In this document: one piece after another, positions 9,722 to 33,438 of the stretch
Layout: each line of letters starts with the position of its first letter
Numbering within the stretch: position 1 is the stretch's first letter
IMG/VR virus record: IMGVR_UViG_3300044991_001760
Coordinates: 1-35,266 of that record
Origin: a virus
Reading direction: 5' to 3' (one strand)
DNA: 35,266 nt
The notes under the pieces: generated by a model
The model's input: only the letters and a program-made list of their open reading frames with translations
Told to the model about the DNA's origin: nothing
The model's database searches: none
Program-made: the position numbers and the translations under genes

Positions 9722-10441
9722 ATGAAACAAAGAATAACTGTCCTCGATAAAGGACACGTAGATCTTATTGATGTGATGGGTTCCGATTTAACGGTTGCCA
9801 ATGCAGCCCGAGTTTCTTTTAATAAAGAAAGCGAATGGGATACGGAACTTAATTGGCTTTCTAAAACAACAGATAATACCTTATCTGCAAAAGATAAAAA
9901 ATTAATTTCTTATCTAGCCAAACATAAACATTGGACACCCTTTGCACACCCACAGATCACAGTAAGAATTAAAGCTCCTATTTTTATTCGCACTCAACTT
10001 TTTAAACACAAAGTTGGATTTGTAGAAAATGAAGTAAGCCGTAGATATGTAACTGATACTCCGGAATTTTATATTCCAAGATGGAGATCAGCACCAACCA
10101 CTGGGGCAAAACAAGGAAGCACAGATTTTATTTTAGATTCTGTAGTTGAAGATAAACTGAATACAGAGTATAATATGGTTCTCGAAGGAGCTTTGAAAAC
10201 ATATGAAAATCTTTTGGAACAGGGTGTCGCCCCAGAACAGGCGCGATCCGTCTTACCACAAGGCGCGTATACGGAGTGGTGGTGGACTGGATCACTTGCG
10301 GGTTTTGCTCGGGTCTACACACAACGAAGTGAGGCACACGCTCAATGGGAAGTACGTGAGTATGCCAATGCGATTGCCGCATCGATTTCTCCGTTCTTCC
10401 CTGTATCTTGGGAACATCTGACTAGTAAGGATAACACATGA
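9722..10441 (+). CDS. thyX: Flavin-dependent thymidylate synthase ThyX
   Basis: Makes dTMP from dUMP using methylene-tetrahydrofolate, FAD and NADPH. The 239-residue protein has the ThyX signature region FKHKVGFVENEVSRRY (94-109); the usual RHR of the motif is KHK here (95-97), a substitution in residues that contact FAD/dUMP. Other family hallmarks are HWTPFAHPQ (70-78) and RSVLPQGAYTEWWWTGSLAGF near 180-200, the dUMP/FAD-binding helix. The last 4 bases overlap the reductase start (ATGA). The second half of the gene is visibly richer in G+C than the first. dUTPase supplies its dUMP. Confidence 0.94.
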   Translation: MKQRITVLDKGHVDLIDVMGSDLTVANAARVSFNKESEWDTELNWLSKTTDNTLSAKDKKLISYLAKHKHWTPFAHPQITVRIKAPIFIRTQLFKHKVGFVENEVSRRYVTDTPEFYIPRWRSAPTTGAKQGSTDFILDSVVEDKLNTEYNMVLEGALKTYENLLEQGVAPEQARSVLPQGAYTEWWWTGSLAGFARVYTQRSEAHAQWEVREYANAIAASISPFFPVSWEHLTSKDNT

Positions 10442-11787
10442 CAAATTTATCACCATTTCAAGAATTTATTTTTATCTCTCGTTATTCACGTTGGATCAAC
10501 TCACAAAATCGCAGAGAGACGTGGACAGAATGCGTAGATCGTTGGTGGGATTATTTCACCACTAAAGTTCCATCGTTACTCGAACGTCCCGATGTACGTG
10601 AAGCAATTCTATCACTCGAAGTGCTACCTTCTATGCGTAGTCTCATGACTGCAGGTAAAGCACTAGATCATGACAACACATGTCTATATAATTGCTCATA
10701 CCTTCCTATTGATTCTATTGATTCATTTGCAGAACTATTTGTTATTCTCATGAATGGTACAGGTACTGGGTATTCTGTTGAAAGACAATATACAGACAAA
10801 CTCCCAACTGTTGCTAACAAGATTGTAAAGAATTTTGATAAGATAATTGTTGTAGAAGATTCAAAGGAAGGTTGGGGAGATGCAATTAAAACATTGTTCA
10901 GTGATCTCTATGCTGGTAAGCATCCTAAATGGGACTTGTCAAAAATTAGAGCATCTGGTGCACGACTTAAAACTTTTGGTGGTCGTGCTTCTGGTCCTGC
11001 TCCACTAGACAATTTATTCAAATTTATAGTAAAGGTCTTCTACAATGCACAGGGACGTAAACTTTCGGCTCTTGAGTGCCACGACACCTGCTGTGCCATC
11101 GCTAATGCCGTAATCGTGGGTGGAGTCCGTAGATCCGCTATGATCTCTCTCAGTGACCTGGGAGACCGTGAAATTGCCATGTGCAAGAGTGGCGCATGGT
11201 GGGAGCAAGCCGGGTTCCGGTCTTACGCCAATAACTCAGCCGTGTATCGCGGAAGACCCCCCATGGGACAGTTTCTTGAGGAGTGGACCTCTCTGTACAA
11301 CTCCCACAGCGGAGAACGCGGTATGATCAATCGTAGGGCACTTCAAGAGCAAGCAGCGAAGTCTGGGCGAGACCCGGATTGTGAATATGGTACCAATCCA
11401 TGTGCAGAAATTATTTTGAAACCTTTTGAATTTTGCAATCTTTCAACGGTCGTAGTTCGTATCGATGACACTGCTGCAAGCCTAAAGAAGAAGATTGAAA
11501 TTGCCACTATTATTGGAACTGTTCAGTCTACATTTGTGAAATTTCCTTATCTTCGTCCTGATTGGAAGAAGAACTGTGAAGAGGAAAGATTGCTTGGTGT
11601 CTCCATGACAGGAATTTTTGATAATAAACTTACCAGCGGTCTTGACGGTAGCCAAAACTTGTTCGACTTCTTGAGAATCTTCGTGACCATGCAACGGCTA
11701 CAAATCTCAAATGGGCAGAGAAGTTGGGTATTAATCCTAGCAAGTCAATCACTTGCGTCAAGCCAGAAGGCACTACTTCTTGCTTAG
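10438..11787 (+). CDS. nrdJ: Class II ribonucleotide reductase, N-terminal piece (frame broken)
   Basis: Adenosylcobalamin-dependent ribonucleoside-triphosphate reductase, monomeric type, reducing NTPs to dNTPs. Family signatures in order: LPSMRSLMTAG, NTCLYNCSYLPID, LMNGTGTGYSVE, GGVRRSAMISLSDL, GERGMINRRAL, YGTNPCAEIILKPFEFCNLS (active-site Asn-Cys-Glu motif and cysteine) and LLGVSMTGIFDN. The start overlaps thyX as ATGA with AAGGA upstream. After about residue 412 the frame loses homology and ends in nonsense at 11787; the family sequence continues one base back in the frame ending at 12323. The shift is -1 and lies between 11652 and about 11690. It could be a real frameshift, a programmed event or an assembly error. 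Confidence 0.9.
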   Translation: MTNLSPFQEFIFISRYSRWINSQNRRETWTECVDRWWDYFTTKVPSLLERPDVREAILSLEVLPSMRSLMTAGKALDHDNTCLYNCSYLPIDSIDSFAELFVILMNGTGTGYSVERQYTDKLPTVANKIVKNFDKIIVVEDSKEGWGDAIKTLFSDLYAGKHPKWDLSKIRASGARLKTFGGRASGPAPLDNLFKFIVKVFYNAQGRKLSALECHDTCCAIANAVIVGGVRRSAMISLSDLGDREIAMCKSGAWWEQAGFRSYANNSAVYRGRPPMGQFLEEWTSLYNSHSGERGMINRRALQEQAAKSGRDPDCEYGTNPCAEIILKPFEFCNLSTVVVRIDDTAASLKKKIEIATIIGTVQSTFVKFPYLRPDWKKNCEEERLLGVSMTGIFDNKLTSGLDGSQNLFDFLRIFVTMQRLQISNGQRSWVLILASQSLASSQKALLLA

Positions 11788-12323
11788 TGGATTCAGCTTC
11801 GGGTTTACATCCACGCTATGCGGATTATTATTTCCGCAGAATCCGATTGGACAAGAAAGATCCTTTGTATAACTTGATGAAGGATCAAGGAGTCCCGTGC
11901 GAGGATGATGTGATAAACCCAACTTCTACTGCCGTATTTACTTTTGCAATGAAGGCTCCTCGTGGTACTGTTACTACAGAAGATCTTCGTGCACTTGACC
12001 ATCTTGATCTGTGGAAAACATATCAAGAACATTACTGTCATCACAAGCCTTCTGTTACCGTCAACTACAAGGACAGTGAATTCCTTGAAGTAGGCAATTG
12101 GTTGTGGGAGAACTTTGATATGGCAACAGGTATTGCATTCTTACCGGGTGGTGATAATCATACATATGCTCAGGCACCGTTTGAGCAAATTGATTCTGCA
12201 ACCTATGCAGCCCACCCAAAGGTCAAGGTTAACTTTAATGATCTCATGAAATATGAGATGGAAGACAACACAGAATCTGCTAAAGAATTTGCTTGCAGTG
12301 CAGGTGGTTGTCAGGTAGTATAA
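11724..12323 (+). CDS. nrdJ: Class II ribonucleotide reductase, C-terminal piece
   Basis: Continuation of the reductase in the -1 frame, open from 11652 (it reads ENLRDHATATNLKWAEKLGI before the first possible start, TTG at 11724). Family signatures: INPSKSITCVKPEGTTS and LVDSASGLHPRYADYYFRR, the substrate-binding end of the barrel. The C-terminus ends FACSAGGCQVV; the C-x4-C pair fits the mobile redox cysteines that recharge the active site in monomeric class II enzymes. Joined, the two pieces give about 628 residues, shorter than but compatible with the monomeric family. An independent start here would lack needed residues, so this is not a separate gene. Confidence 0.88.
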   Translation: MGINPSKSITCVKPEGTTSCLVDSASGLHPRYADYYFRRIRLDKKDPLYNLMKDQGVPCEDDVINPTSTAVFTFAMKAPRGTVTTEDLRALDHLDLWKTYQEHYCHHKPSVTVNYKDSEFLEVGNWLWENFDMATGIAFLPGGDNHTYAQAPFEQIDSATYAAHPKVKVNFNDLMKYEMEDNTESAKEFACSAGGCQVV

Positions 12324-19092: not shown

Positions 19093-21462
19093 ATGGATTT
19101 CAAACATAAATTATTAAAATACATTGCTGAAGCCACTGGACCTGCTAATCCTAAAACAGGACAGAGCATTCGCAAAGAAACTAAAATGAGTAGTTCGGGC
19201 TCCAGCAAAGCCCGTGACGCCGCACGCAAAAGAGCTGAACGGCAGAATGCACCGAAAAAGGAACAACTTCCTTCTGCTGAATTAATTAAGCAGATTATTG
19301 CTGTCAAAACCACTGATGGTAAAACAGAACTAATTTATAAAGATTCGTTTAATAATGGTTACCACGAAGTTCTGAATCCAGAAAAAGATTTATCAATCGA
19401 AGATGCCAAGGGACTTACTAAAGATCCGGCATTCACCCAAACACAAGCTTCACAACAATTATTTGGTGACCTTACTAAAAAGGCAGAATCCAAAGAAAGA
19501 AAACGTGCAGCGTCTGAAACTAGTGGTAAAGCTGACGGTGAACAAGACGCTGAAGATTTAGGTCCAGAAGTAGAAAAGAAGAAATTCATTAAACCCAAGA
19601 AAATGGGTATGCAAGATTTATTGGCAAGCATGGGTACAATGGATGGTACTCAACTTGGGTCAATTCCATTTGATTTGCGTCAAGAATTTTTTATGCAGAA
19701 TCGTGATCCAATGGCAGCAAAGGATTTTGATGCATTAACATATGAGTCTGTTGCAACTAAATTTGGTATCAGTGAAGTAGATATCCCATATAATGAGCAA
19801 GTTAAAAATGCTCTTATTATGGTTGCTCGCTTAAAAGCTGGAGCATCAGATTCTGAATTAACCTTTGTAACTAATCTTAAAAATGGATCATTCACTCAAT
19901 TTGGTAGAGAGGCATTTGAACAAGCAAAGAAAATTCTTTCTAAGGTTGGTGATGAATGCATTCAAATGATGGTATCAGCATCAGAAGCTGGTCTTGCTGG
20001 TATTTCTGCTGAAGGTAAAACAGATTTTAAATGCGGTAATGTTAAATTTGCTGTGAATTCACAGGGTGAAATTTCTCTATCCAGTGGTGATATGACACAA
20101 CTAGGAAAAGGAATAAAGAAAACCATTCAGCGTAGTTTGATTCAAACCATGCAAGACGCTAGTCTTGCCGCTAAAGACCCAATCTATAATACAGCGATCA
20201 ACCAAGTTAATGATATTATGGCTAGTTCTGCTACTGCTTTGATGAGTGATGAATCATTTGCACAAGCAACTAAAGATCCTTCTGTTCTAGCATTCATGCA
20301 ATCAGAACCAGTGATGAGTCCAACTGGTGAAAATCTTGGACCAATGGCTTTTCCAACCGGAGAAATCAATCCTGCGATTTCCTTCAAGCAATTTGAAGAT
20401 AACATGACTCGCACTGTAGATAAATTTATTGCACAAGAAAAAAATAATAAAGCACCTTTTATGCAATCATTGATAAAAAATACTATTATGAATCACTTGC
20501 GTGGTGATGGTTCTGTTGATCCAGAATCAGCCCCATCACATTTGGTAACTAATAATGGTATATTCCCAATGAGTGATGATTACTTTGCAAAGATTGCTGC
20601 AAATAGTGATATTACCATAGAAAAAACTAATAAATCATATTTTAATAAATCAAGTGAAATCAATAAGTATAGTGTTGTAGTTGAACAGGCTGAAGTATTA
20701 GATCCATATCAACAAATTAGAGACATGATTGCTGGTATGTTAGTTCCTACTGGAAATTCGCCAATCGAAGTATTATCTAATACTTTAAACAAAAATTATA
20801 ACTTTGATATGAATGTTAGTTTGTTGCCTGGTATCAAACCAAATGAAATTCATGGCGTAGAATACAATCTTTTAAGTGTTCACGGTAAACGATACAAAAT
20901 TCCTGTACTAAGAGATCAGGAACTGGTTGCAGCTAGCTTCGAAGAAAGCTATGTTGCAGCTAATAGTATTTTGCTTGAGAGTTTAACAAATGATGATGTT
21001 ATTCGTGCTCTATATGAAACGAACCTAATCAGTTATGATGATGCAGAATGTATTGTATATTCTCGTTATAATGACATGACAGTAGCACAACCAGTATTAG
21101 TTCCCATTTTACAAAGACTTGCTGAAAGTATTCATAGAGATCCATCTCTCATTCAAATTTGTAAAACTAATTTGATTGAAGCAAAGGAACGTGATAGAGA
21201 TTATAAGCGCGAATATAAATTGTTTCACAGTAAACCCTCACAGATTAAAAATCGAACTGCCCGTACAACTGCTCGCAGAAGAGCGATTAAAAAAGGTAAA
21301 GTCCGTATCGGTGATAATAAAGATATAGATCACAAGAAGCCATTACGTAATGGTGGAAGCAATAAAGAGAGTAATCTACGTGTTAGAGATCGAAGCGCAA
21401 ATCGATCCGATAATGGTAAATATAAAGGACAGGCTCCAGATAAGCCACGCACAGACAAATGA
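19093..21462 (+). CDS. Large virion-type protein with C-terminal HNH domain and capsid-targeting-like start
   Basis: A 789-residue protein. It opens MDFKHKLLKYIAE|A, almost the same ending as T4 internal proteins (FIAEA), so prohead-protease cleavage after E13 and packaging in the head are predicted. The middle is long, Ala/Gln/Met-rich and unrecognised. The C-terminus (about 695-789) is a nuclease module: KEYDY-like RDYKREYKLFHSKPSQ, a basic Arg-rich helix, GDNKDIDHKKPLRNGG (HNH His) and SNLRVRDRSANRSD (HNH Asn). As a free small protein this module is common in phages; here it is fused to a large packaged-type body. A nuclease carried in the head and delivered to the cell is a fair inference. 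Confidence 0.78.
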   Translation: MDFKHKLLKYIAEATGPANPKTGQSIRKETKMSSSGSSKARDAARKRAERQNAPKKEQLPSAELIKQIIAVKTTDGKTELIYKDSFNNGYHEVLNPEKDLSIEDAKGLTKDPAFTQTQASQQLFGDLTKKAESKERKRAASETSGKADGEQDAEDLGPEVEKKKFIKPKKMGMQDLLASMGTMDGTQLGSIPFDLRQEFFMQNRDPMAAKDFDALTYESVATKFGISEVDIPYNEQVKNALIMVARLKAGASDSELTFVTNLKNGSFTQFGREAFEQAKKILSKVGDECIQMMVSASEAGLAGISAEGKTDFKCGNVKFAVNSQGEISLSSGDMTQLGKGIKKTIQRSLIQTMQDASLAAKDPIYNTAINQVNDIMASSATALMSDESFAQATKDPSVLAFMQSEPVMSPTGENLGPMAFPTGEINPAISFKQFEDNMTRTVDKFIAQEKNNKAPFMQSLIKNTIMNHLRGDGSVDPESAPSHLVTNNGIFPMSDDYFAKIAANSDITIEKTNKSYFNKSSEINKYSVVVEQAEVLDPYQQIRDMIAGMLVPTGNSPIEVLSNTLNKNYNFDMNVSLLPGIKPNEIHGVEYNLLSVHGKRYKIPVLRDQELVAASFEESYVAANSILLESLTNDDVIRALYETNLISYDDAECIVYSRYNDMTVAQPVLVPILQRLAESIHRDPSLIQICKTNLIEAKERDRDYKREYKLFHSKPSQIKNRTARTTARRRAIKKGKVRIGDNKDIDHKKPLRNGGSNKESNLRVRDRSANRSDNGKYKGQAPDKPRTDK

Positions 21463-25679: not shown

Positions 25680-25707
25680 ATTATACACGATATAGTATAG
25701 GTGTCAA
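25680..25707 (-). promoter_or_regulatory. Consensus sigma70 promoter, start codon at +2
   Basis: TTGACA (25702-25707), 16-base spacer, TATAAT (25680-25685) on the minus strand, both perfect. The predicted start site is 25673 and the ATG begins at 25672. It lies directly after the tmRNA end hairpin. Confidence 0.8.
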
Positions 25708-25711
25708 TAAC

Positions 25712-25735
25712 AAAGCCCTGCTTTCACAGGGCTTT
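25712..25735 (-). terminator. Hairpin ending the tmRNA unit
   Basis: AAAGCCCTG and CAGGGCTTT form a perfect 9-bp stem with a 6-base loop. The following T tract is weak (GTTATT), so it may be a 3' processing boundary as much as a terminator. The TTGACA of the next promoter begins 5 bases further on. Confidence 0.6.
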
Positions 25736-26026
25736 GGGTCGATTCAGATGCGGGAGACCAGACCCCACTGCTTTAAGCAGCCATTGCTAATTGGTTAGCA
25801 ATCATGGTTTGCAACTGTTTATTTACGTTTCTTGTTACCCGAAACGGACATCTCCTTCTTCACTACTACTTGCCAATCGATACCTTAACGGGCCCTTAAG
25901 AAATGCCCCACTGCGGCGAGGACTTGGTTCGGCTTATCAGAAGTCGCAGAACATTCTGAATACACCTAATGGACCCGAGGGGAGTCGAACCCCTGTGTTG
26001 TGCAACTCTCGTTCCGATATCAACAA
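25736..26026 (-). ncRNA. ssrA: Circularly permuted two-piece tmRNA (ssrA)
   Basis: In transcription order: an acceptor piece ending in a T-arm (AGGGG-TTCGACT-CCCCT, 25978-25994) and acceptor strand CGGGTCC plus A (25970-25977); about 74 bases of intervening sequence; then a coding piece starting GGGCCCG (25889-25895), which pairs with CGGGTCC over 7 bp (one G-U). The D-analog GGTATCGATTGG (25873-25884) fits the tmRNA 5' consensus GGnTTCGAnnGG. TTGGCAA (25870-25876) can pair with TTGCACAA (25998-26005) as helix P2. A reading frame ends ATGGCTGCTTAA (tag ...ANQLAMAA) in a small hairpin CTGCT-TTA-AGCAG, as tmRNA stops often do. CCA is not encoded. A single tRNA cannot explain the T-arm because no anticodon arm stands before it. 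Outer ends are approximate. Confidence 0.8.
25773..25826 (-). other. tmRNA tag reading frame
   Basis: The frame reads GTA...ACC ATG ATT GCT AAC CAA TTA GCA ATG GCT GCT TAA, ending M-I-A-N-Q-L-A-M-A-A. The hydrophobic ...AA end is what ClpXP-type proteases recognise on tagged proteins. The resume codon is unclear: the classic-looking CAGTT-GCA-AAC (25807-25817) is in another frame and meets a stop after five codons (ANHDC). Either the resume codon lies elsewhere or one base differs from the working gene. Confidence 0.6.
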
Positions 26027-26032
26027 TGTCAA

Positions 26033-26115
26033 TGCAAGAGGAGGGATTCGAACCTTCGTAGAAATGAATCAGCAGATTTACAGTCTGCCCTCGTTGACCG
26101 CTTGAGTACTCTTGC
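26033..26115 (-). tRNA. tRNA-Tyr (GUA)
   Basis: Acceptor GCAAGAG pairs with CTCTTGC; anticodon arm GCAGA-CTGTAAA-TCTGC gives anticodon GTA; a long variable arm (class II) is present, and the T-arm is AGGTTCGAATCCCTCC-like. A on the discriminator, CCA not encoded. It is just upstream of the tmRNA acceptor piece in the same transcript. Confidence 0.94.
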
Positions 26116-26119
26116 TTAA

Positions 26120-26410
26120 TTATTTAACAGTAATTTTAACTATGGCGTAATTCTTTTTATCTGATTCAACAAACATCAAAGAATCAATAATTCTATTGTC
26201 GGGAATAGATGCTTCTCTTGCCGACATACCAACTTCAATGTATGGTCCACCTTCAAAGTCAACCATACTGTTATCAGTAGTTCCTCGTGTAAACAAAGTT
26301 TCACCTTCAATCAGATAAGTGTAACTATTCACCTTTCGGATTATTCTTTCGACGTGATAACGGCTTATGCTTCTTGCTATTACTGGATTTTCTTTTTGTG
26401 GCTTTATCAT
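26120..26410 (-). CDS. Unknown protein, DFEGGP family (second paralog)
   Basis: From the ATG at 26410 the protein has 96 residues, the same length as its paralog at 5142-5432, sharing ERIIRK...YLIEG.TLFTR and DFEGGPYIEVG. The frame is open to 26452. It overlaps the 59-residue gene at 26325-26504 in a different frame by about 86 bases. The C-terminus lacks the basic tail of the paralog. Function unknown; two copies suggest a family with divided roles. Confidence 0.7.
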   Translation of the reverse strand: MIKPQKENPVIARSISRYHVERIIRKVNSYTYLIEGETLFTRGTTDNSMVDFEGGPYIEVGMSAREASIPDNRIIDSLMFVESDKKNYAIVKITVK

Positions 26411-27452: not shown

Positions 27453-27701
27453 TTATTTTTTATTGTTTTTATCATTATGCGTAAGCCATGCTTGTGACTC
27501 CCAAAATTTTTCAAGAGGGAGTTGTTTGTCATTTGGGCTATTATGCCATATACATCGCATTACACCACCTACTTCATGTAACACTGAAGCACACCAATCA
27601 TCACAGTACCCATATTTCTTGATCTGAACATGTAAATTGTGTTTAGAAACTTCAGTTTTAAAAGTTTCATATATTGGCGGAATTGTCTTTTTTCTTGCCA
27701 T
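27453..27701 (-). CDS. Small unknown protein from a leaderless promoter
   Basis: An 82-residue protein, unrecognised, with Cys at residues about 33, 37 and 50 and Trp/His nearby (YGYCDDWCASVLHE, MRCIWHNS), possibly a metal site. The ATG is 7 bases after TATAAT with no Shine-Dalgarno site. Early expression is inferred. Confidence 0.72.
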   Translation of the reverse strand: MARKKTIPPIYETFKTEVSKHNLHVQIKKYGYCDDWCASVLHEVGGVMRCIWHNSPNDKQLPLEKFWESQAWLTHNDKNNKK

Positions 27702-27708
27702 AATGCAT

Positions 27709-27736
27709 ATTATAACAGAATTCTTCTATGTGTCAA
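27709..27736 (-). promoter_or_regulatory. Consensus sigma70 promoter, start codon at +2
   Basis: TTGACA (27731-27736), 16-base spacer, TATAAT (27709-27714) on the minus strand; predicted start 27702, ATG at 27701. It lies beside a rightward late box at 27740. Confidence 0.8.
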
Positions 27737-27739
27737 TAC

Positions 27740-27747
27740 ACTAAATA
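27740..27747 (+). promoter_or_regulatory. Late-type promoter ACTAAATA
   Basis: Twenty bases upstream of the ATG at 27768, with GAGGA between, so this transcript has a normal short leader. Confidence 0.55.
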
Positions 27748-27767
27748 ATCATAAAGAGGACCACTTC

Positions 27768-29687
27768 ATGGACAATGTTGCAAAATATTATAAAGAGCTA
27801 TCTGAGAACCTTTTAAACGAAAGAGATCATTTGCTTAGAGTGTTAAATGAGGTAGCTCCAGCTCCTAAAAAATCACAGTCTCGCTTAGTTGATGGTGTTT
27901 GGGTTGACGATAATGGTAACCCAGTTCAGGGTGCACCAGGTGCTCCGATTCCTCTTTCGCCACCAGATTTGTTGACTCCAAATGGTCCTGCACCGATTCA
28001 ACCACAACAACCGCCTCTGACCCCACCTCCTGGAATCGCTTTACCTGGTTCAAATGAAGTTCCTGGTTTAATTGGTCTAAGTGAACCTGGTTCACCTGGT
28101 GTAGCTCCAATACCACAAGATCCAAGAGACCCAAACTTTGTTCCACAGAATCCTGGGTTACCACAACAACCATATACTCCACCACCACCACCACCAGAAG
28201 AAGACCGTAGTGCAGACTCTAGAGAAAATAATAGAGGCAAAGCACCCATGGCTCCAAATACGGAAAAAGGTGATTATGAATCTGCAAGACGAGCTTATTA
28301 CGCAAAAAGAAATCAACAAACAAGAGATGAAGCAGAAGAAAATCTTGCACGAATGGGTGCACTTAACCCAAGCTCAAGCGCATCAACAAATGCAGCTAGA
28401 GCTGTAAGTCAATTACGTTCTCAGAGAGCAATGAAGAAAGGTAATGATAAATTTTCACAATCTGACATTGACAGAATGGTAAAAAGCGATTCGAAAGAAC
28501 GCTTTATGAGCCAAGCCGATAAAGATGCACGAAAAGCCAGAGATGCATCAGCTGTTGCTGGATTAGAAAAAGCTGGTTACGAAAAGATGGGTTATACTCA
28601 AAATGCAAGAGGTCAATATGTTGATGCACAAGGAAGGCCTGCTTCACTTGCTACAACAATTGACCGATTAGGACCAGATACAATAATTCAAGGAACGAGT
28701 ATGACTCGTGGTGAGTTTGAAAGACAAACTGGTCGTAAGTATGATGCAACAAATAGAGAAGACAGTGCTTTAGTAAGTAGACTAGCAGGGGCTGGAAGAT
28801 ATGGTTCAGAAGCAGCAAGACAGGGAGCTCTTAGCTCTGATGCGATGAACCAAGGATACCAAAAACAAAACGATGAAATGGCTAAAGAGACCGGAAGGCT
28901 TGATCGTCAAGTTGATGCATCACAAAGAGAATTAGATCGTTTTAGAAATGATCCAAAATATCGTGAAAGTCAAAGAAATTTGGATTCAAATGGAAGACAA
29001 ATTGTAACTCCTGGATTTATAAACAATATTGCACAACAAACTGCAGCTGATCTAAGAGATCGTACAGATGTTCCAGTTGATGTAAATAATGACCGTGGTT
29101 CCATAGAAGATAGAGGTCCCAAGACAAGAGGTGGTCAAGTTACAAATGCTGCGGCAAATATGACAACACAACCAGCAAAACCAACTCCAGCTGGAGCAAA
29201 TAGTGCTGTTGGTCAACCACAGTTACAAACAAGACAACAAGCACCACCACCAGCATCAGTTCCAACATCTGTTGGACCACCATCAAGCACTACAGGTGCT
29301 CGAAATACAACTCCAGCGATGCAACCTACCACAAGCCCTGTAAGTGGTAATCCTAACCCCGTGAAACCTATTGTTGCTCCTGCACGTAATGCAACAATTC
29401 CACAACAGAATGCTACACCAGCCAGACCTCTTGCTCCGGCTGCACCACCAGTCGCGGTTGGGTCATCTGTAACAGCAAAAGCAGCAACAATGACTATTAA
29501 ACCACAATTGGCTAGTGCTGGTGCCCCAATTGATCCACAACAAACAGGTGGACCGACTGCACAAAACAGAGGAATTCCAATTCCATCAGCCAATCCAATG
29601 GCTGATGCACAGGCTGGACCTTTGGGTGCACCATTGAAGAAGAAACTAGTAGCCACTGCTGGCAGAACTCCTAACATAAGAGCATAA
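27768..29687 (+). CDS. Large Pro/Gln-rich virion-type protein with capsid-targeting-like start
   Basis: A 639-residue protein; the upstream part of the open frame (from 27639) crosses the promoter and is excluded. The N-terminal helix ends VLNE|VAPAP. Residues about 55-150 are Pro-rich with PPLTPPPG and a run of six Pro; 160-400 are charged and helical (RSQRAMKKGNDKFSQSDIDR); 430-639 are again Pro/Thr/Ala/Gln-rich. Mostly disordered by composition, no membrane segment. Such a body fits a flexible head-internal or injected protein. Stop and next start overlap (TAATG). Confidence 0.75.
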   Translation: MDNVAKYYKELSENLLNERDHLLRVLNEVAPAPKKSQSRLVDGVWVDDNGNPVQGAPGAPIPLSPPDLLTPNGPAPIQPQQPPLTPPPGIALPGSNEVPGLIGLSEPGSPGVAPIPQDPRDPNFVPQNPGLPQQPYTPPPPPPEEDRSADSRENNRGKAPMAPNTEKGDYESARRAYYAKRNQQTRDEAEENLARMGALNPSSSASTNAARAVSQLRSQRAMKKGNDKFSQSDIDRMVKSDSKERFMSQADKDARKARDASAVAGLEKAGYEKMGYTQNARGQYVDAQGRPASLATTIDRLGPDTIIQGTSMTRGEFERQTGRKYDATNREDSALVSRLAGAGRYGSEAARQGALSSDAMNQGYQKQNDEMAKETGRLDRQVDASQRELDRFRNDPKYRESQRNLDSNGRQIVTPGFINNIAQQTAADLRDRTDVPVDVNNDRGSIEDRGPKTRGGQVTNAAANMTTQPAKPTPAGANSAVGQPQLQTRQQAPPPASVPTSVGPPSSTTGARNTTPAMQPTTSPVSGNPNPVKPIVAPARNATIPQQNATPARPLAPAAPPVAVGSSVTAKAATMTIKPQLASAGAPIDPQQTGGPTAQNRGIPIPSANPMADAQAGPLGAPLKKKLVATAGRTPNIRA

Positions 29688-31053: not shown

Positions 31054-33438
31054 ATGAGAGAACATGTTAATAAGAATTTTATCTCCAGTATAACTGGTAA
31101 ACACCTATTAAAAGAAACAGATAAAAGATCAGTTCTTAAAAAAGAAAAAGAAGCTGCTGAAATTTTACGTCTACAACAAGTAAAACTTCAAGAGGAGTCC
31201 AATAAACAACGATTCATAGCAGCTCACTATGAAAAATTAAGAACTCCTTATGTTCCTGTATTAAATAAAGAATTTGCAAAATCTTTGAATGAATCTTTGA
31301 CTAGACATTTTTCTAGATTACCTAAGCATTTACATGAACAGGTAGCTACCCCATCTGATTGGGTTCCCCACAATACTCCAGTTGGACTATTTTATGTAAA
31401 TCAAATTACTGGTGAGTGGATGAATTCTTTTGGTCATGTAGCACTTAGTTTAGAAGATTTATTACATGCTACTGGTGAAGACATGCACTCTGATGTAAGC
31501 CAAAGATTATTAACTGTTCAAACAATTGAAGATCCAATACTTCCTGCAGCAACAAGCATTCTTGACTATGAAGTTTGGATAACAACATTTTATGATGTTC
31601 CAACTTGGAATACTGAAAATTACACCACTTTTTCTGTAGTTCCGGGTATCATCATAGATACAAATCAATATAACGGCTACAGGGCTATAGGAAATACATC
31701 AGCATCTGACTGGACTACTGGTAAGAGAAATGAATTTGTAAGTCTTGCTTCTTCTATTCCAGAAAGCAGAAGAGTATGTATGGTATATGCATACTTTGAT
31801 GAAATGGTTCCCTTTTCATGGAATAAAACTGCATATTATAGAAATACGTTGGACGGGGTAACTTACGAAAATACAAGATTTTTGACTCCGTGGATGGATA
31901 CAATGTATTCAGAGAATAAAGATCACTTTAAAACTGTGCTTCAATATTTGGATTCAAATAATATAACAATTCCTTATTTCCAAGATGACAAGGAATCTGT
32001 ATCTCCAATATTTGGATTAGATGGATTATCTCTTTATTATGGAAAATCAAGTTTTGATGTCTCCGGTAACCCAACAGCAATTTGGAATACTGATCCATAT
32101 TTTATATCTTGGGGAGGAACATATTATTTTGACGCAAGAACAACAGCATCATACATGCATGATTCAAGATTTACTGGGCTTACAAATCCCCAATCAAATC
32201 AAACTTTGGCTTCTTCTATAGTAGATATATTCAATTCTATACCAGGAAATACTCCGTTTACGGGAAGTGCACCTGAATTGCTATCAAGAGCATATGGAGT
32301 AACACATCCGGGCGACTTTGTTGCATACGGCTTCTCTAATGAAAGACAGTGGAGCTATTTTGGACCCGGACCAGCAACTACAGAATCTCAAAGAACAAGA
32401 GATATATTGATAAAAGCTTCTCACCTGTCTGCAATGAATGAATTGATCCAAGGAAATTATGCATCAAGAGTTTTTTATGATACATTTGATGAAATACCAA
32501 GATTTAATTCTTCAATTTATTCAGATTATGAAGAAGCTCCAATATCACCAGAAGAATCAATATATTATCAAGATTCAAATGATGCACCGATAATAATACG
32601 AGAATATCCGAATTTTAGTGGTGGTCATGCTTGGTATGCAAATGCAGGAAATATAATAAGACAGGGCTACTTATCATTTCCAGGAAGTCCAACATATATT
32701 TCTGGATATGTTCGAAATCCACAAACTGATGATGAGAGATACAATTTTCAAGGTCATGAAAATCCATCTTATGTACCTAGCCCGGGGGCAACACTTGTTA
32801 GATATGCAAACCAGACATCATCTACTACAGAATTTCAAAGACAAATAACACATAAACAATTTGTTTACGATTTAAAAACTATGAGGCTCCACTATAGATC
32901 AAAGCCTGATTTTTGGACAGTTAATACTCCTTGGCTTTGGAATGACAGGTATAATGGATATTATCTCACATCATTTGATAGCGGAAGGTATGGCGTAGAA
33001 TTTGTTTACCATCTTCTTTTACATGGAGTTTTGTATTTAAATGACTTTGGAAATGGAGGCGACTCAGGTTCACGAACTATATACAATAATATATTGAATA
33101 AATGGAGAGATATAAGCTATAACTCAAACTCAAGACCATGCTCAAATGCAACTGGGGATGTCGATGAACTTGTAGACAGACTTGTTCTTGCAGATGCTTT
33201 TGATAATGTTGCTATGAGTGGAGGGCGACTCAACAGAACTGGAAAATATTTGTGGAGAATAACAGCACCACCATCTGCAATAAGAGCAAATGGAACAATA
33301 GTATTCCAAAGAGTTGGGAATGACTCTGATATTCCAGCTACTGTAACTTGTTCACCCACAGATCCATATGATGGTCGTGGTATATGGATAAAACGTTTAG
33401 TATCAACACCACCACAATACGTCATTGTACCAGAATAA
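31054..33438 (+). CDS. Large enzyme-like virion protein with capsid-targeting-like start
   Basis: A 794-residue protein. The N-terminus MREHVNKNFISSITGKHLLKE|T fits the capsid-targeting pattern; a charged helical stretch (25-80) follows. From about 100 on it is a dense, aromatic-rich globular sequence with repeated strand-like segments ending in acids (VVPGIIIDTNQY, RVCMVYAYFDE, ITIPYFQDDKE, AIWNTDPYFISWGG). This pattern recalls TIM-barrel glycosidases, but no catalytic pair can be assigned and the call is impression only. It could be a packaged enzyme or an outer virion protein. Confidence 0.75.
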   Translation: MREHVNKNFISSITGKHLLKETDKRSVLKKEKEAAEILRLQQVKLQEESNKQRFIAAHYEKLRTPYVPVLNKEFAKSLNESLTRHFSRLPKHLHEQVATPSDWVPHNTPVGLFYVNQITGEWMNSFGHVALSLEDLLHATGEDMHSDVSQRLLTVQTIEDPILPAATSILDYEVWITTFYDVPTWNTENYTTFSVVPGIIIDTNQYNGYRAIGNTSASDWTTGKRNEFVSLASSIPESRRVCMVYAYFDEMVPFSWNKTAYYRNTLDGVTYENTRFLTPWMDTMYSENKDHFKTVLQYLDSNNITIPYFQDDKESVSPIFGLDGLSLYYGKSSFDVSGNPTAIWNTDPYFISWGGTYYFDARTTASYMHDSRFTGLTNPQSNQTLASSIVDIFNSIPGNTPFTGSAPELLSRAYGVTHPGDFVAYGFSNERQWSYFGPGPATTESQRTRDILIKASHLSAMNELIQGNYASRVFYDTFDEIPRFNSSIYSDYEEAPISPEESIYYQDSNDAPIIIREYPNFSGGHAWYANAGNIIRQGYLSFPGSPTYISGYVRNPQTDDERYNFQGHENPSYVPSPGATLVRYANQTSSTTEFQRQITHKQFVYDLKTMRLHYRSKPDFWTVNTPWLWNDRYNGYYLTSFDSGRYGVEFVYHLLLHGVLYLNDFGNGGDSGSRTIYNNILNKWRDISYNSNSRPCSNATGDVDELVDRLVLADAFDNVAMSGGRLNRTGKYLWRITAPPSAIRANGTIVFQRVGNDSDIPATVTCSPTDPYDGRGIWIKRLVSTPPQYVIVPE

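Follow-up and report, generated by a model that had tools for sequence, protein, structure and literature searches.

tmRNA is an RNA that frees stalled ribosomes. In phages a two-piece ssrA was described in 2022 for Melnitz, and a tally of 133 phage tmRNA structures held 53 two-piece forms, 50 of these being marine or aquatic (PMC9004378); the unique phage tmRNAs counted number 79 (PMC11915505). Permuted phage tmRNA as such is thus already known, and the hedged idea of an earlier sequence-only reading of the present locus, that none had been described, has to be given up.

The window considered here (the whole 35,266 nt stretch of IMG/VR record IMGVR_UViG_3300044991_001760) belongs to a T4-like phage, the record being known from metagenome assemblies alone. 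It carries the phage core genes for a family B DNA polymerase (about 40-43% identical to polymerases of T4-like cyanophages), UvsX, a DnaB-like helicase and a primase, and further genes for ThyX, ribonucleotide reductase and a RuvC-like resolvase. Closer relatives are many in IMG/VR, and a cyanophage identity was rejected, a psbA-type gene being absent from 38 related phage records. Among annotated-phage DNA similar to the window the top matches were to tRNA-Tyr, and none covered the tmRNA. The ribonucleotide reductase occupies two frames at 10438-12323 (+), namely 10438-11787 and 11724-12323, and is a single intact 628-aa frame in a close relative (L332), so that the split reflects either a recent frameshift or an indel from sequencing or assembly. 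The large proteins encoded at 19093-21462, 27639-29687 and 31054-33438 (all +), 682-794 aa long, have no Pfam match and are probably structural; PHROGs, on those tested, gave one unknown family covering part of the 19093-21462 product.

On its minus strand the window contains a real phage-borne permuted (two-piece) tmRNA gene, with the T-arm and 3' acceptor strand preceding the 5' acceptor strand and tag. The merged model RF04321 (tmRNA_permuted; cmscan, gathering score 47 bits) matches over its full length at 25773-26030 with 71.1 bits and E = 6.2e-12, and ARAGORN places a permuted tmRNA* at 25682-26062. The covariance-model check proposed earlier therefore succeeds with the merged model alone, since no lineage-specific tmRNA model exceeds its own cut-off on the window; RF01850 beta_tmRNA matches in part (25708-26065) at 43.9 bits, below its cut-off of 84. 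All the parts named in the sequence-only reading were found in the order it gave, including the D-arm analogue and the stop-codon hairpin that closes the tag, and its interval of 25736-26026 picks out the right element but falls slightly short at both ends. The T-arm does not come from an ordinary tRNA, as the separate tRNA-Tyr has a T-arm of its own. Coordinates are collected in the Table.

Table. Features of the permuted tmRNA locus (window coordinates, except where the locus of a relative is named)
Feature	Position	Strand	Basis or remark
Permuted tmRNA gene, tRNA-Tyr end to terminal hairpin	about 25711..26032	-	RF04321, RF01850 partial match, ARAGORN; outer ends inferred
Acceptor piece (inter-piece helix strand, T-arm, 3' acceptor strand, discriminator)	25970..26032	-	sequence; T-stem covariation
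T-arm AGGGG-TTCGACT-CCCCT	25978-25994	-	sequence
3' acceptor strand CGGGTCC (RNA CGGGUCC)	25971-25977	-	sequence
Discriminator A	25970	-	CCA not encoded, TTA comes next
Intervening segment, 74 nt, structured RNA	25896..25969	-	alignment A2, 31 distinct relatives; pair counts
5' acceptor strand GGGCCCG, opens coding piece	25889..25895	-	7/7 pairs with CGGGUCC
D-arm analogue GGTATCGATTGG	25873..25884	-	sequence and RF04321 alignment
Pseudoknot 1: S1 UCC/GGG, S2 CGUUUC/GAAACG	25826..25848	-	compensatory changes in relatives, e.g. CGACAC/GUGUCG
Tag reading frame GCU AAC CAA UUA GCA AUG GCU GCU = ANQLAMAA	25776..25799	-	stop UAA at 25773-25775
Hairpin over resume codon, AUUGCUAA-CCAA-UUAGCAAU	25783..25802	-	fold -6.2 kcal/mol, z -4.08
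Stop-codon hairpin CUGCU-UAA-AGCAG, UAA as loop	25768..25780	-	100% paired among 57 sequences listed
Terminal hairpin CAAAGCCCUG/CAGGGCUUUG	25711..25736	-	aligns with last helix of beta tmRNA model
tRNA-Tyr (GUA), directly upstream of tmRNA gene	26033..26115	-	ARAGORN and RF00005
T4-type late-promoter-like TTAAATA	26121..26127	-	start 12 nt downstream = 26115, tRNA-Tyr first base
Second intervening RNA, in relatives	L151:10051-10217; L176:2199-2364; L286:1766-1938; L244; L269:6704-6825		strong conserved core GGUUAGCGGC...CCUUCCUAACC

The acceptor strands form all seven pairs, the third being G.U. A G.U at the third acceptor pair (G3.U70) is the alanine identity pair. The missing CCA does not count as a fault of the tmRNA itself, because tRNA-Asn, tRNA-Tyr and tRNA-Glu of the window are also without it. 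The hairpin over the resume codon has one covarying position, and its register is not common to all relatives; a similar inverted repeat (AUAAUUG/CAAUUAU) surrounds the resume codon of Melnitz. The terminal hairpin is possibly a terminator, missed by a terminator scan that did not report it because the T run after it is weak. Directly 3' of this hairpin, a perfect sigma-70 consensus promoter sequence (TTGACA-16-TATAAT, 25707-25680, minus strand) points into a 113-aa ORF at 25672-25331.

That the same element should occur in related phages is borne out by RF04321 scoring above its cut-off in 17 of 50 related virus records, and by two pattern scans of IMG/VR that gave at least 100 tag regions, at least 94 of them with a recognisable acceptor stem, some contigs being counted more than once. 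Two records close by polymerase, G001 (78 kb) and G003 (136 kb), have no tmRNA, and may be incomplete. Across the 94 or more loci, each accepted only with a full 7-bp match (6 of the 100 tag regions listed gave no resolved stem), the acceptor stem comes in 10 sequence types with all 7 bp paired, positions 4-7 being swapped with compensation and G3.U70 being invariant among the loci listed. In a structure alignment of 57 distinct sequences among the matches listed, the T-stem is 100% paired with 4 of its 5 pairs covarying, the inter-piece helix is paired in 97.4% of cells with double-sided changes at 4/4 pairs, and in pseudoknot 1 S1 is 97.1% and S2 98.2% paired, S2 covarying; with the stop-codon hairpin, these elements span 97-100% pairing. 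Over the whole structure 91.7% of cells are paired against 40-48% when partners are slid, and 16 pairs show double-sided changes, a number reached in 0 of 500 shuffles. The acceptor pairing of 76.9% in this alignment is an underestimate caused by a one-column slip of MAFFT, and the direct 94-locus search is preferred. Because homologues in at least 94 loci hold their pairing through compensatory changes, the tmRNA of the window is not a chance resemblance. Three IMG/VR loci (L082, L089 and L090) carry phage tmRNAs of the standard one-piece form, whose tags are unusually long at 30 residues (e.g. ANDQSFAMTVAEADALLNSFEFEAAEALAA).

How the gene may be expressed is suggested by its upstream sequence. 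Late promoters of T4-like phages read TATAAATA in T4, NATAAATA in S-PM2 and CTAAATA from -12 in Aeh1 (PMC2984593, PMC1524935), with transcription starting 12 nt downstream of the motif (PMC1524935). Among the 56 distinct loci listed, [CT]TAAATA puts +1 where the conserved acceptor-piece block starts, or next to it, in 14, and in 20 it lies at -96 to -118, the expected start of a directly preceding tRNA, against a background of 0.0098 per equally sized window. In the present phage the motif predicts a start on the first base of tRNA-Tyr, so that tRNA-Tyr and tmRNA are probably co-transcribed and the tmRNA would, judged by these T4-type motifs, be made late in infection, which lends indirect support to the late role suggested in the sequence-only reading. 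This late co-transcription stands against the early expression proposed for Melnitz (PMC9004378).

Taking together the gene order, the pairing, the frame, its conservation and the lack of SmpB in the phage records searched, it is very probable that this T4-like phage produces a two-piece tmRNA, late and together with tRNA-Tyr, which is processed by the host, charged, and used for tagging through host SmpB. A single precursor would run from the late promoter through tRNA-Tyr and tmRNA; the intervening segment would be excised by the host's tRNA-processing enzymes, the RNA would receive its CCA, and the acceptor stem and inter-piece helix would keep the two pieces together. Charging would be by alanyl-tRNA synthetase via G3.U70, and host SmpB would bring the charged tmRNA to stalled ribosomes, where the tag A-ANQLAMAA would be added as a C-terminal, AA-ended peptide such as commonly directs proteins to proteases. 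The phage would probably profit chiefly from the freeing of ribosomes from cut or decaying mRNA while it makes its structural proteins. SmpB was found in 0 of 23 related or comparison phage records (the window, a fragment, was not among them) and in 10 of 14 control genomes, and so the phage would rely on the SmpB of its host, which in turn should be a bacterium with trans-translation. An exact tmRNA 3' pattern had 9 matches in 84,980 genomes, none of them within a tmRNA. Against a functional reading stand the G at -4 of the resume codon, the CCA that is not encoded, and the two polymerase-related records without tmRNA.

The purpose of the RNA could also be to compete with the tmRNA of the host, as a decoy that alters the tag seen by host proteases and spares or redirects truncated proteins, and not to add rescue capacity. 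A tag-less tmRNA of phage DS6A does inhibit endogenous tmRNA in E. coli (PMC11915505), and the phage tags, short and ending in M/L/I/V-AA, are unlike those of the bacterial permuted tmRNA examined. However, a complete tag frame with an AA end like that of proteolysis tags argues for ordinary tagging and leaves the decoy role an unlikely one.

Where the tag begins is decided by the relatives. ARAGORN reports for the window VNKQLQTMIANQLAMAA, which is longer than the ANQLAMAA of the sequence-only reading. Among the matches listed, 28 distinct tag regions have a fixed length of 8 codons from GCC/GCU to the stop, and the stretch between the conserved CAGUUGCAAA and the tag frame varies by 1 nt; such a change would be neutral only if translation resumes at GCY. 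Judged by this conserved frame the ARAGORN tag is over-extended and ANQLAMAA is the right one, which shows that automatic calls can misidentify the tag in genes of this type. The tags of relatives (ANQLAMAA, ANELAMAA, AAPMRMAA, AAPMAMAA, ANYMAMAA and similar) all end in AA, as does that of the window, which also has its resume codon and stop.

A start at the conserved GCA within CAGUUGCAAA would instead give a truncated ANHDC followed by a stop, and hence ribosome rescue without a degradation tag. Its context CAGUU-GCA, which has A at -4, resembles the UAGUC-GCA of E. coli, and CAGUUGCAAA does not vary among the aligned loci, partly by selection since it formed part of the search pattern. But half of the distinct tag regions listed have 1 extra nt after GCAAA, and seven of these have no stop in the GCA frame near the normal place, whereas the GCY-to-stop frame is kept in both classes; in addition the alpha-type tmRNA of Melnitz resumes at UAAUU-GCA AAC, which the motif UAAUU-GCY AAC here matches. 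With the 28 distinct tag regions listed placing the conserved frame start at GCY, the GCA start was rejected as highly improbable.

At -4 of the resume codon the window has G (UGAUU-GCU) where tmRNAs have a nearly invariant A; among the loci listed about a quarter have G and the remainder A. In E. coli the A86G change works weakly, with low activity, and A86 is nearly but not wholly invariant in tmRNAs (PMC2481249), for which reason the G is a deviation and not an exclusion from the permuted tmRNA family. Given the low activity of A86G, tagging by the phage RNA may be inefficient, or may take place in a host whose SmpB is tolerant. That the gene is a captured host ssrA, decaying or inert and of no use to the phage, as this G and the related records without a match might suggest, is scarcely credible when the 57 distinct sequences listed hold their stems by compensatory change with an intact 8-codon frame, and a promoter-like motif is held in place across relatives.

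In contrast to what would be expected of a supposedly discarded part of a precursor, the intervening segment contains a conserved RNA. The span between the acceptor strands ranges from 5 to 173 nt among the loci listed, and alignment A2 shows one homologous intervening RNA in 31 distinct sequences among the matches listed. This has a 3-bp helix GCC/GGC (GGU/GCC or GGC/GCC in two sequences), a first hairpin with a variable stem and the loop CUGCRA, a second hairpin CCUCG/CGGGG whose loop UNGCAG is complementary to that of the first, and often a third hairpin with the loop UCCUAGG. The window has the short version without the third hairpin, made up of a GGU/GCC helix, a hairpin UCAGAA/UUCUGA with CUGCG within its loop, and a hairpin CCUCG/UGGGG whose loop CCGCAG can pair with CUGCG. 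In the 31 distinct sequences listed, 90.7% of cells are paired against 32-48% in slid controls, and 16 of 29 pairs change on both sides, with 0 of 500 shuffles as high; relatedness can inflate such covariation scores, and the slid controls retain it. A kissing loop is probable rather than proven from the alignment, because changes in the loop-loop pairing are few (CUGUAA/UUACAG in L200, CUGCG/CGCAG in the window), and 22 of the 31 sequences listed fail to form one of the six pairs. The fold stability of the window copy is not unusual (z -0.94), with z -3.0 in L125 and -3.5 in L200.

Resemblance to known ribozymes and riboswitches (twister, twister-sister and HDV-like, by eye) was rejected on Rfam, since apart from tmRNA models spanning the segment Rfam 15 gave no family inside the window segment at E up to 1 and no match in those of L158, L155, L194 and L176 at E up to 5. 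Neither does the RNA seem a mobile element, the intervening-RNA model matching once each in 17 of 50 phage records, every one of the 17 having a permuted tmRNA. A bacterial-host origin was likewise set aside: model R1 of the intervening RNA, slightly weakened by three bogus pairs, matched 0 of 146 Cyanobacteriota genomes (in a search without positive control) and, weakly, 4 of 399 in Pseudomonadota, which are probably chance matches, the best lying inside an apparent protease coding gene with no tmRNA called nearby.

In five relatives the same slot holds a second, unrelated structured RNA of 122-173 nt (Table), without an Rfam match in L176, and in others just 5-6 nt, so that the intervening RNA is not required for tmRNA function in every phage. 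Such 5-6 nt segments were discarded as a novelty, a cyanobacterial permuted tmRNA also having 6 nt. The excised segment, a conserved folded RNA in most relatives, probably serves precursor folding or processing, or is active after release. Going further, we would propose only tentatively that it is a functional undescribed structured RNA, of two kissing hairpins and an optional third, released at processing, and that the slot is a site of RNA-module exchange between phages. Should the RNA influence processing, or work as a small RNA once free, the gene would yield two products. No description of a conserved structured intervening RNA or of module replacement was found in the openly searchable literature, with subscription journals mostly outside it, and as far as checked the structured RNA and its swapping appear new, the case being stronger in the relatives than in the window. 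To the same extent, the T4-type late-promoter motifs at the start of the gene or of its preceding tRNA, and the G at -4 in the window, also appear new. Dozens of sequences of clear anatomy, with minimal tags of 8 residues and probably a late promoter, make the purpose and timing of phage permuted tmRNAs testable.

Compared with described systems, the locus is like that of the Methylophilales phage Melnitz (MZ577097; PMC9004378) in belonging to a T4-like phage, in the permuted layout, in a 5' acceptor strand rich in G, in a tag frame that follows pseudoknot 1 and in matching RF04321 (113.4 bits in Melnitz). Unlike the window, Melnitz is alpha-type (RF01849 106.7 bits), encodes CCA, has the tag ANDNYVPVDYALAA, and has a glutamine riboswitch after the gene and a late-transcription coactivator adjoining. 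The betaproteobacterial model RF01850 is the best of the three older lineage models, and its resume codon and terminal hairpin align with those of the window, but it lacks the structured intervening segment and the window, besides its sub-threshold score, encodes no CCA. A cyanobacterial permuted tmRNA (L326) likewise does not encode CCA, and its 6-nt intervening segment is like the shortest forms among the relatives, whereas the window has 74 structured nucleotides; its tag, ANNIVRFSRQTAPVAA, is also different. Unusual intervening sequences have been noted in two permuted tmRNAs, one with a tRNA-Ala gene and one with a repetitive element (PMC11915505); in contrast, the intervening RNA here is neither tRNA nor repeat, and is conserved and covarying in the 31 distinct sequences listed.
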